48,364 nt of DNA from Desulfobaccales bacterium (GTDB lineage: Bacteria; Desulfobacterota; Desulfobaccia; Desulfobaccales; 0-14-0-80-60-11): contig JBBFLF010000001.1 of assembly GCA_037481655.1 (NCBI GenBank), positions 1-48,364 on the forward strand, given 5' to 3'. Below are positions 17,526-22,487 of the stretch, piece by piece. Both the position numbers and the translations under genes were made by a program. The notes below the pieces were generated by a model. It made no database searches, was not told where the DNA came from, and saw only the letters and a program-made list of their open reading frames with translations. Position 1 is the stretch's first letter. Every line of letters begins with the position of its first letter.

Positions 17526-18206
17526 ATGATCGGCACGACCAAGAAACCCCTGGAGGAGGTCCTGGCGGCCTTGGCGCCCTACCGCAAGGTGGCGGTGGTG
17601 GGCTGCGACGGCTGCGCCAAGATCTGCCAGACCGGCGGGGTGGACGAAGTGGCCCAGCTGGCCCGCACCCTGGAAGCCCATGGCAAGGAGATCGTCTTTG
17701 AGGCCACCCCGGAACGCACCTGCAACGTGGCCAAATCCGATCCCATCCTCAAGCCCCTCACCGACAAGATTCAGGAAGCCGACGCCCTCCTGGTCCTGGG
17801 CTGCGGCGGCGCCGTCCAGATCACCCGCTACCTCACCGAACAATATGGCCTCACCAAGCCGGTGAAGGTGGGCCTCAACTCCGTGGGCCATCTGGACACG
17901 GTGGTCCCCGGCGCGGTGGCCATGGAGGAGTGCTCCGACTGCGGCGAGTGCGTCCTCAACGACACCGGCGGCATCTGCCCGGTGACCCGCTGCGCCAAGA
18001 GCTTGCTCAACGGCCCCTGCGGCGGCGCCGAAGGCGGCAAGTGCGAGGTGGACCACAACCGGGACTGCGCCTGGATCCTCATCTATGAGCGCCTCAAGGC
18101 CCTGGGGGAGACGGACAAGCTGAAGCGCTTCATGGAACCCAAGGACTTCAGCAAGATGGCCAAACCCCGCACGCTCTACATCAAGGAAGGGAGGGTGGCC
18201 TCATGA
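17526..18206 (+). CDS. metV: MetV, partner subunit of methylenetetrahydrofolate reductase
   Basis: This 226-residue protein of the MTHFR C-terminal (zinc-binding) family pairs with MetF in acetogens and many anaerobes. It probably delivers electrons to MetF. Conserved cysteine groups are visible: VVGCDGCAKICQTGG near residue 27, VLGCGGAVQ near 90, and the dense cluster ECSDCGECVLNDTGGICPV, then CAKSLLNGPCGG and GKCEVD. These could ligate Fe-S or Zn. GAGGAG precedes the ATG. Its stop overlaps the metF start by 4 bp (ATGA), so the two are coupled. In this setting it suggests a Wood-Ljungdahl-type methyl branch. Confidence 0.93.
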   Translation: MIGTTKKPLEEVLAALAPYRKVAVVGCDGCAKICQTGGVDEVAQLARTLEAHGKEIVFEATPERTCNVAKSDPILKPLTDKIQEADALLVLGCGGAVQITRYLTEQYGLTKPVKVGLNSVGHLDTVVPGAVAMEECSDCGECVLNDTGGICPVTRCAKSLLNGPCGGAEGGKCEVDHNRDCAWILIYERLKALGETDKLKRFMEPKDFSKMAKPRTLYIKEGRVAS

Positions 18207-19332: not shown

Positions 19333-19375
19333 CCCCAACACCGGACATACCCATCTCCCCAGGAGGCGGTCCGCC

Positions 19376-21955
19376 ATGAAACGACTGTGCGTCATCTTAG
19401 GAGGCGGCCTGGCCGTCGTAGCCGCCTGGCTTTTGCTCTTGCCCCCGGAGCTCCACGCCCGGGAGCGGGCCTGCGTGCCTTTTCACCTCAAAACTGAGGA
19501 CGGCAAGATCATCAACCCCTTGACCGGGGAAAACGCCGATCAGCCCTACAGCCCTCGGCAGACCTGCGGCGCCTGCCACAACTACGACGAAATCACCAAG
19601 GGCTTCCACTTCCAGCAGGGCTGGGACCGCATCCGGGACGACTTCAGCAAGACCAAGCCCTGGGTGCTGTCCGACGGCATGCTGGGGAAGTTCTGACCGC
19701 CCTCTTTTCGCCAGTTGGCGAAAAAGAAAAACGAGCATCCCGACCAGATCGACCTCACCACCTTTGAATGGATCAGTGTGGGCCCCCGGGACCCTCAGGG
19801 GATGAACCAGCCCACCTGCGGCTCCTGCCATCCCGGCGGCGGCGGCCTGGAGTTCGACCGGGACGGCAAGCGCTATGATACCCGCCTCAAGGCGGAGCCC
19901 CAGCTGGCTCAGAGCCTGGACGGCGATTACTACCAGAGCCAGTGGGACAAGACCGGCGTGGTGGAGGCTGACTGCCTGCTGTGCCACCTGCCGGGCTACA
20001 ACTTCAACGAGCGCACCCGCCAGCTCAAGATGCTGAACTACAAATGGGCCGGCACCGCCGCCTCCGGCATCGGCCTGGTGAGCGGCTATGTCCGGGACGG
20101 CCAGCAGCCCAAGGTGACCTACAACCGGCGGCTGTTCAACGAGGACGGCAAGATCGTCCTGGACCTCTCCTACCCGCCTCCGGCGGAGAACTGCGTCTTC
20201 TGCCACGGCATCTCCGACGTCAAGAAGCGGGGCTTCTCCTGGAACGACCGGGTCAACCACGACGTCCACAACGCCCAGGGGATGAACTGCGCCCATTGCC
20301 ACCCCGCCATCGAGGACCCGGCCCGCAAGATCACCAAGCTCCAGCACCAGTTCGCCAAGGGGCATGAAAACGTCTCCACCGTGCGGGACGACCTGGACTA
20401 TGTGGGCTTCAAGACCTGCCAGCAGTGCCACGAGCAGGGCTACATGGGCGCGCCTCGGCCGCAGCACCTCTCCATCCGCCCCAACCACCTGGAGAAGCTG
20501 GCCTGCGAGGTCTGCCACATCCCGGCGGTGCACCGGGCCGGTTTTGAGGGCTTCGACGTCACCACCGGCGCCATGGTGAATTACCCCACCATGCTGCCGC
20601 CGCCCGGGGCCAAAAAGATCGGCGACGAATTCACCTGGCGGCCCTCCTACCAGCGGGATGAGAAGGGCAAGCTTTGGCCGGTGAACCGCTTCAAGAGCGT
20701 CTTTTTCACCAATCAGGACAAGGACGGCATCAACTACCCCCTCTTCGCCCGGGAGCTGAAGAAGGGTTACGACAAGGCCAAAGAGCAGCTCAAGCCCAAA
20801 AACCCGCAGAAACCCGAGCTCCACACCCCGGAGCAAATCAAGATCGCCTTGCTGGCCCTCAAGGAGACCCTGCAAGGGAACAAGCGCTTCCAGCAGATCA
20901 AGCCCTTCTTCCACAAGGGCGGCATGATGTACTACCTGGACGATAAGGGCGAGCTGGTGAGCGGCCCCGACACCACCTGGGCCGGCCACGCCGAGGGCTT
21001 CAACATCAACCACAACGTCGCCCCCGCCAGCCTGGCTTTGGGCGCCCAGGGGTGCGGCGACTGCCACTCCAGCGAGGCCCACATGTTCAAGGGCCAGATC
21101 GTCACCGACATGTTCGGCCCCGACGGCAAGCCCGTGACCATCAGCTCCGGCCGCCTGTTTGGCTGCCGGCCCTGGGCTTTCTATGTCAACCAGTTCCATC
21201 AGACCTATCTCACCCCGTACGTGAGCATCCTGCTGTTGCTCCTGGTCTTCGGCCTCACCCTGCATTACACCGGCCAGGGGCCCAAGGGCGCCGACTTCAC
21301 CTATGAGCCGGCGACCATCGAGCGCTTCAACGTCACCGAGCGCTGGACCCACCTCATCCGCATGCTCTCCTTCCTGGTGCTCACCTTCACGGGCTACATC
21401 TTCTTTTACAACAACGTCACGATGCTGAGGATGTTCTTCAGCACACCCAACGCCGCGGTGGTGGTGCACTGGGTGGCCGGCCTCATCTTTGTGGCCGCCG
21501 GCATCGTGGCGATGGCCCTGTGGGCCAAGGACGCCAAGTTCGCCCCCTATGACCGGGAATGGCTGGCCAAACGGGGCGGCTATCTCGGCGGCAAGGAGGT
21601 GGAGGTGCCCGCCGGACGGCTGAATGCCGGCCAGAAGATCTTCCTCTGGTTCACCGCCGTCCTCACCCTGATCATGGGCGTCACCGGCATTCTCCTCATC
21701 TTCAAGACCAGCCTGCCGCTGACCTGGAGTTGCGTGCTTTCCACCGTCCACGGCCTCTTCGCCGTGGTCTTTGTGGCCGCGGTCATCGCCCACGCTTACT
21801 TGGGCACCATCGCCAACCCCGGCACCTGGCGGGCTTTGGTGGACGGCAAAGTGAGCCGCACCTGGGCCAAGAAACATCACTCCGAGTGGTACAAGGAGAT
21901 CGTCGCCCGGGAGGAAAAGGAAAAGGGCTCACCCCCGCCGGAGGAAAAAGCCTAA
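19376..21955 (+). CDS. Octaheme cytochrome c fused to cytochrome b; candidate selenoprotein (in-frame TGA)
   Basis: Read through one TGA (19694-19696, residue 107) this is an 859-residue protein. It has a signal peptide (about 1-28). Eight CxxCH motifs start near residues 64, 148, 200, 273, 305, 348, 377 and 560. A five-span C-terminal cytochrome b-like domain (from about 614) has histidines in WTHLIRM, VVVHWVAG, STVHGLF and VIAHAY, fit for two b hemes. This suggests a quinone-linked periplasmic electron carrier. Upstream and downstream parts are in the same frame. The second part has no ribosome-binding site (its first possible start is TTG at 19715) and no signal peptide, although its hemes must be attached outside the membrane. 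The TGA sits in LGKF-U-PPSFRQL and is followed by a SECIS-like hairpin. The alternative is a nonsense mutation or sequence error. GGAGG precedes the first ATG. Confidence 0.75.
19694..19726 (+). promoter_or_regulatory. UGA codon with SECIS-like hairpin
   Basis: The TGA at 19694-19696 is followed by 16 nt, then the loop AGUU (19713-19716) closing a perfect 8-bp stem (19705-19712 with 19717-19724). Two more pairs follow beyond a bulged A25. In E. coli fdhF the UGA is followed by 17 nt and the loop AGGUCU; both loops contain GU near the 5' side. The stem codons TCT, TTT, TTG and GCG depart from the C/G-ending bias of the gene, as expected if RNA structure is under selection. Confidence 0.65.
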
Positions 21956-22121: not shown

Positions 22122-22487
22122 ATGGCGCAGAAATTCCTCTTCATCATGTCCAAGGGCTTTGAGAAGGCCGGCGGCGCCGTGCGGGCCATGCAGCTCGCCA
22201 ACCTCATGGCCCAGGCCGGCCATCAGGTGGAGGTCTTCCTCATCGACGACTCCATCCACTGGGCCCAGATCGGGGTGGCCGAAGGCATCCGGGCCGCCAC
22301 CGGCGAGCACATGAAAGAGATGCTGGACGGCCTCCTGGCCGCCAAGACCCCCATCCACGTCTGCAAGGCCTGCGCCGACAAGCGCCTGGTGGGACCCGAC
22401 GACCTCGTCGAGGGCGCGATCATCTCCCCTGCCACCAAGCTGGTGGAGCTCATGGCCGACCCTGCCTACAAAGTCTTCACCTTCTAA
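22122..22487 (+). CDS. DsrE-family protein
   Basis: This 121-residue protein has the DsrE/DsrF-like fold: FLFIMSKGFEKAGGAVRAMQLANLM near the N-terminus, then AGHQVEVFLIDDSIHWA, IHVCKACADKR with two cysteines (CKAC, near residues 86 and 89), and LVEGAIISPATKLVELM. DsrE-type proteins relay sulfane sulfur on cysteines, but many family members have unknown roles. AAGGAGG precedes the ATG. It lies between a multiheme cytochrome and a membrane protein, consistent with sulfur or electron metabolism. The specific reaction is not inferable. Confidence 0.88.
   Translation: MAQKFLFIMSKGFEKAGGAVRAMQLANLMAQAGHQVEVFLIDDSIHWAQIGVAEGIRAATGEHMKEMLDGLLAAKTPIHVCKACADKRLVGPDDLVEGAIISPATKLVELMADPAYKVFTF

Follow-up and report, generated by a model that had tools for sequence, protein, structure and literature searches.

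A very probable selenocysteine codon in a gene for an octaheme cytochrome fused to a cytochrome b domain

Layout of the gene and its surroundings

The gene described here lies on the forward strand of the window, the whole 48,364-nucleotide stretch of Desulfobaccales DNA that was analysed. As an earlier, sequence-only reading had claimed, a single TGA (19694-19696), placed between heme motifs 1 and 2, interrupts a frame that is otherwise open from an ATG at 19376 to a TAA at 21953-21955. With the UGA read as selenocysteine (Sec, U107), a reading suggested by the conservation of TGA at this site in relatives, the joined coding sequence (19376-21955) would specify a protein of 859 residues. The ATG is preceded by a Shine-Dalgarno (SD) sequence, AGGAGG (19361-19366), and is followed by a predicted signal peptide at residues 1-28 (19376-19459), for which the structure model has a helix at residues 2-21 and the cleavage site is putative. 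The second half of the gene has neither an SD sequence nor a signal peptide, as that reading had also stated. Its listed start codon, a TTG at 19715, falls inside the hairpin that follows the TGA, where it consists of loop and the first stem base.

Eight CxxCH motifs begin at residues 64, 148, 200, 273, 305, 348, 377, and 560, one of them before the TGA and seven after it. The heme 1 motif is CGACH (residues 64-68; 19565-19579), and the heme 2 motif, which starts at residue 148, is CGSCH (19817-19831); motifs 3 to 8 extend from 19973 to 21067. Two close relatives (L009 and L013) have a heme 1 motif of the CX4CH type (CGTSNCH) rather than CxxCH. At L040 / G026:C234 the gene is split near residue 385 by a frame change in the assembly.

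Downstream, on the same strand, lies a gene for a DsrE/DsrF-like protein (22122-22487), a possible partner. A gene of this kind adjoins the cytochrome gene, either upstream or downstream, in at least nine of the closest loci, a link seen in the closest group only; its presence is a hint that favours sulfur chemistry. Upstream in the window are methylenetetrahydrofolate reductase genes, and such neighbours were not found outside the genus in the loci searched.

The in-frame UGA and its hairpin

A search with the joined protein in 59 related genomes recovered this gene from close relatives, at 69-94% identity; all of them that reach codon 107 have TGA there. More distant relatives have Cys at the site (GGNWCSPAPLYRQLAPK), within a single open frame that runs through it. 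Thus, the residue aligned to position 107, which the sequence-only reading had proposed as a check, is Sec (TGA plus hairpin) or Cys in these relatives. That reading had also held that relatives encoded as two separate proteins would speak against selenocysteine, and no relative turned up as a pair of genes each with a start of its own. When 395 genomes of the phylum were searched with a profile of the region from heme 1 to heme 3, 87 gave a match, and the interrupting stops listed in this search were TGA in every case. The results of this profile search and of a pattern search (below) were pooled to give 101 distinct sequences across the phylum; 65 have TGA at the site, 15 have Cys, 21 have another residue (mostly Ser, with Val and Gln also represented), and none has TAA or TAG, although these are counts of distinct sequences rather than of independent events and most of the genomes are drafts. 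Since 21 relatives have neither Sec nor Cys, the residue is dispensable in some lineages, and on a quick tree Sec and non-Sec must have interchanged eight times or more. The three codons 3' of the TGA vary almost only in their third positions among 48 Sec forms with 16-nt spacing, so this stretch is translated.

The gene is related to a group of larger multiheme proteins (L097, L103, L101, L064, and their relatives), with frames of up to ~1400 aa. They share a module composed of heme 1 and the sequence W-U-P-P-S-x-R-Q-L-A together with its SECIS. No cytochrome b domain was found in the members of this group that were scanned, and the giant relatives have weak matches to outer-membrane cytochrome domains.

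The arms TTTTCGCC and GGCGAAAA form, around the loop AGTT, a hairpin of 8 bp (19705-19724) whose loop lies 16 nt past the TGA, exactly as had been claimed. A G is present within the first two loop positions, and the element lies directly 3' of the UGA, as looked for in a SECIS. When the next 19 codons were synonymously recoded according to local codon usage, a stem of at least 8 bp arose in 0.036% of 50,000 draws; no other 8-bp stem of the same kind was found in a scan of the gene. The further claim that the stem contains codons odd for this gene holds for TCT (4%) and TTG (11%), which are uncommon, but not for GCG (17%) and TTT (26%), which are not really so.

The pattern TGA-N12-CGCCAGTTGGCG, which fixes the inner four pairs and so biases the search towards them, found matches in 38 of 395 genomes, while the reversed control found 0. 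Nearly all matches are multiheme cytochromes with one heme motif ahead of the TGA; three (L082, L088, and L105) are not cytochromes and were counted as chance. The same stem is present in sequences retrieved by protein similarity alone, and here compensatory changes are included: C-G, U-A, and G-C all occur at the fifth pair and C-G, A-U, and G-C at the fourth, while L198 has A-U at the second. Sec forms have a loop that starts with AG, 16 or 22 nt past the TGA, atop a GC-rich stem. A Watson-Crick stem of at least 4 bp can be formed by 62 of 64 Sec forms (the other two need G-U) versus 2 of 15 Cys forms, and in several Cys members the R-Q-L-A peptide is unchanged but written in other codons, and the hairpin is absent. 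In the covariation analysis, 98.9% of the cells are paired, and double changes occupy 23 cells versus 5.9 after shuffling, a value of 23 being reached in 0 of 500 shuffles; slid controls were far lower. The hairpin is thus both conserved and covarying, as expected of the SECIS that had been proposed, and no result of the kind named as counting against the proposal came up. Two members with Ser (TCA) at the site (L171 and L210) still have an intact 8-bp AGTT hairpin, an apparent relic SECIS after recent loss of Sec.

All four of selA, selB, selC, and selD, for which the sequence-only reading had suggested looking, are present in the genome; the tRNA-Sec has the anticodon UCA, and selD has an in-frame TGA of its own. 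SelB scores over the cut-off in 77 of the 79 genomes with the family. Both remaining genomes are drafts; in one, G060, the site encodes Ser. The presence of SelB was rejected as a discriminator between Sec and non-Sec forms, given that 77 of 79 genomes have it.

Together, the TGA-or-Cys site, the covarying hairpin, and the complete machinery uphold the proposal that UGA encodes Sec, and the TGA in this large electron-transfer protein, which belongs to uncultured relatives of sulfate reducers, is very probably read in this way. SelB and tRNA-Sec would decode the UGA at the hairpin just 3' of it, and the product would be one periplasm-exported, membrane-anchored enzyme. Automatic gene calling would instead show two proteins from a conserved operon, a short monoheme protein terminated by the UGA and, downstream, a cytochrome c/b with seven hemes, and the same alternative was proposed for ExtK/ExtL (PMC1914089). 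Such an arrangement is highly improbable here: the frame of the Cys relatives is open over the site, the peptide after the TGA is conserved while its third positions drift, neither TAA nor TAG occurs in any member read at the site, and the downstream TTG, within the hairpin, has no SD sequence or signal peptide, while hemes 2-8 need export. A draft genome of 50 contigs could harbour a pseudogene or an assembly error that merely resembles a recoded gene; however, 65 distinct sequences belonging to many genera share the TGA, and the hairpin that follows it covaries, which leaves this with a negligible probability. The evidence is robust for readthrough as such, which ordinary suppression or a genome-wide changed code (UGA as Trp or Gly) could also account for. 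Yet the exchange is with Cys, the hairpin tracks the TGA, the Sec machinery is complete, and UGA terminates normal genes here, for example that at 17526-18206 (Pfam MTHFR C-terminal domain); consequently, readthrough of a kind other than Sec insertion deserves very little credence.

The octaheme part and the membrane domain

Against the curated model of octaheme tetrathionate reductase (OTR; TIGR04315), the protein scores 22.7 bits, far below the cut-off of 375, and against TIGR04314 (MmcA) it scores 41.8 bits versus a cut-off of 250, with eight hemes rather than seven. Profile-profile comparison (HHalign) with OTR family sequences gives an E value of 8e-21. AlphaFold gave a poor model of the full-length protein (pTM 0.37); its model of the octaheme part, made with 38 sequences, reached a pTM of 0.83. 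Foldseek alone found no significant match to the octaheme model, and a second look with VIA-align matched it over 328 residues to 1SP3, the OTR of S. oneidensis, at a Z of 10.7; the runner-up had a Z of 4.2. Judged by fold and sequence profile, the octaheme part is a divergent member of the OTR superfamily that lies far outside the curated OTR family.

The distal heme ligands of OTR are seven His plus one Lys, and it is the catalytic second heme that is ligated by a highly conserved lysine (PMC11024163). Profile comparison and motif reading mark heme 2 of the present protein as the likely equivalent of this catalytic heme. Lys284 (20225-20227) is present in all 21 of the 21 family members compared, and the profile alignment places it on Lys153 of OTR, which there is the distal heme 2 ligand (PMC11024163); thus, heme 2 is probably ligated by Lys284 as in OTR. 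Only six invariant His lie outside the CxxCH motifs of the octaheme part (residues 78, 298, 324, 364, 371, and 546), compared with the seven distal His of OTR, and one heme has no obvious distal ligand.

Many canonical OTR family proteins of the phylum also have one TGA; among those read, it stands in place of the Cys matching 1SP3 Cys64, likewise between hemes 1 and 2. In six of them (L108, L116, L118, L120, L124, and L125) a hairpin with an AGGT loop coincides with the coding sequence of heme motif 2 itself, and in two (L111 and L112) the hairpin is located at or just before the start of this motif. A column alignment of Sec107 to OTR Cys64 failed, the N-terminal profile comparison being reliable only at heme 2; Sec107 lies 41 residues before heme 2, versus 10 for the OTR site. 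A second OTR homologue in the genome of the window (G000:C15:17216-18403) has an in-frame TAG and is either a broken gene or an assembly error.

The fusion of cytochromes c and b that the sequence-only reading described is borne out by the C-terminal region, which scores 136.3 bits against TIGR01583 (FdnI type; cut-off 115.85). A predicted membrane helix (residues 599-634; 21170-21277) links the periplasmic and membrane domains in the structure model. The diheme cytochrome b domain that follows (residues 648-844; 21317-21907) contains the conserved heme-b His: H659, H792, and H806 are present in 15 of 15 rows, and H698 in 14 of 15. The FdnI-type score and these four His therefore point to quinone coupling. 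No formate dehydrogenase gene was found among the neighbours scanned. At the Sec-OTR locus L108, a reading by eye runs past the octaheme gene into what appears to be a separate cytochrome b gene. If this reading is right, the window protein may represent a natural fusion of an L108-like octaheme/cytochrome b pair.

Possible role of Sec107 and relation to known systems

Computation, on which the evidence rests throughout, shows the Sec coding, the SECIS, the machinery, the OTR fold, the b domain, and the conserved lysine. The best overall explanation, and one that we consider likely, is that the gene encodes a UGA-Sec, OTR-like, quinone-coupled oxidoreductase with its Sec near the active heme. 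Sec107, located between hemes 1 and 2 as is OTR Cys64/Sec, would most likely lie in the heme 2 active-site pocket and act as a selenolate nucleophile or redox residue; the substrate would probably be polysulfide or a small oxyanion of sulfur (or selenium). The chain of hemes, together with the fused diheme b domain of the FdnI type, would carry electrons between the active site and the quinone pool. The protein could thus be a self-contained quinone-coupled reductase or, with electrons flowing in reverse, a dehydrogenase.

Alternatively, Sec107 could be an axial ligand of a c-type heme instead of a catalytic residue, a role that the sequence-only reading had raised as a possibility, and the six invariant non-CxxCH His, against the seven His plus Lys of OTR (PMC11024163), do leave one distal ligand unaccounted for. 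However, the position is Ser, Val, Gln, or another residue in 21 relatives of the family, and the Sec and Cys forms of the OTR family have a common overall motif set. Ligation by Sec is therefore improbable, and a Sec near a lysine-ligated active heme appears to be better supported. Somewhat more weight, though still that of an unlikely reading, can be given to an electron conduit (extracellular or quinone-linked) that has no substrate site and in which Sec only tunes or protects a heme. The related clade MmcA functions as a conduit (PMC11024163), and the giant relatives weakly match outer-membrane cytochrome domains; yet MmcA has lost heme 2 and the lysine (PMC11024163), both of which are retained here. 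Returning to the preferred oxidoreductase, the more specific idea that its Sec takes part in the work of a c-type heme site, as ligand or catalyst at an otherwise lysine-ligated heme, is offered tentatively and is somewhat less likely than not. If true, it would mean heme-selenium enzymes, self-contained and quinone-linked, in an octaheme family spread over many Desulfobacterota. To our knowledge, heme-selenium chemistry is uncharacterised in any natural heme protein.

Sec multiheme cytochromes are already known (ExtKL as a prediction, OTR as a GenBank annotation), but this octaheme family is apparently undescribed: literature searches found no published description, and no NCBIfam model scores over its cut-off for the octaheme part, only the b domain being covered. 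This selenium octaheme cytochrome family is widespread, with some members, as here, having their own quinone-linked membrane domain, and it adds a large selenoprotein family with a clear, covarying SECIS. Under standard annotation, such genes would end prematurely at the UGA, and what follows could be labelled a formate dehydrogenase subunit; the respiratory pathways of sulfate reducers and of uncultured bacteria related to them are therefore probably being misread. Between hemes 1 and 2, the OTR superfamily may use either Sec or Cys, which makes it testable what Cys64 does in OTR and which substrate the "cryptic" octaheme enzymes truly act on.

Among characterised or predicted systems, FdnI, the formate dehydrogenase gamma subunit (TIGR01583; 1KQF chain C), is of the same family as the C-terminal domain and has the four b-heme His, but here the domain is fused to an octaheme protein. 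MmcA of Methanosarcina (TIGR04314), for which we know of no Sec, is likewise an OTR-superfamily electron-transfer cytochrome. Unlike the present protein, it has seven hemes and lacks heme 2 and the lysine ligand (PMC11024163). ExtKL of Geobacter (NF040886) was predicted in 2007 to be a Sec multiheme c-type cytochrome, annotated as two genes (PMC1914089), and is tied to selenite reduction through its gene cluster (PMC1914089, PMC5877670); that study found no SECIS. ExtKL has five hemes in its N-terminal part, whereas this protein has one heme before Sec. The gene was rejected as a member of that family: it has no NF040886 match, the only one in the genome lying elsewhere (20.8 bits). The Sec form of TIGR04315 is listed as "GenBank annotated" in a 2026 inventory (PMC13188914). 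These Sec OTR proteins are also octaheme, and those read here also have their TGA between hemes 1 and 2; however, it lies 10 residues before heme 2, the hairpin overlaps or is close to the heme 2 codons, and there is no fused b domain in those read. With OTR in general (TIGR04315; S. oneidensis, 1SP3), the protein shares eight c hemes, the overall fold, a conserved lysine aligned with the heme 2 ligand, and a Cys or Sec between hemes 1 and 2. It differs in its ~21% identity, its SECIS, its fused cytochrome b, the motif G-K-F-U-P-P-S-F-R-Q-L-A, and a long insert before heme 2.
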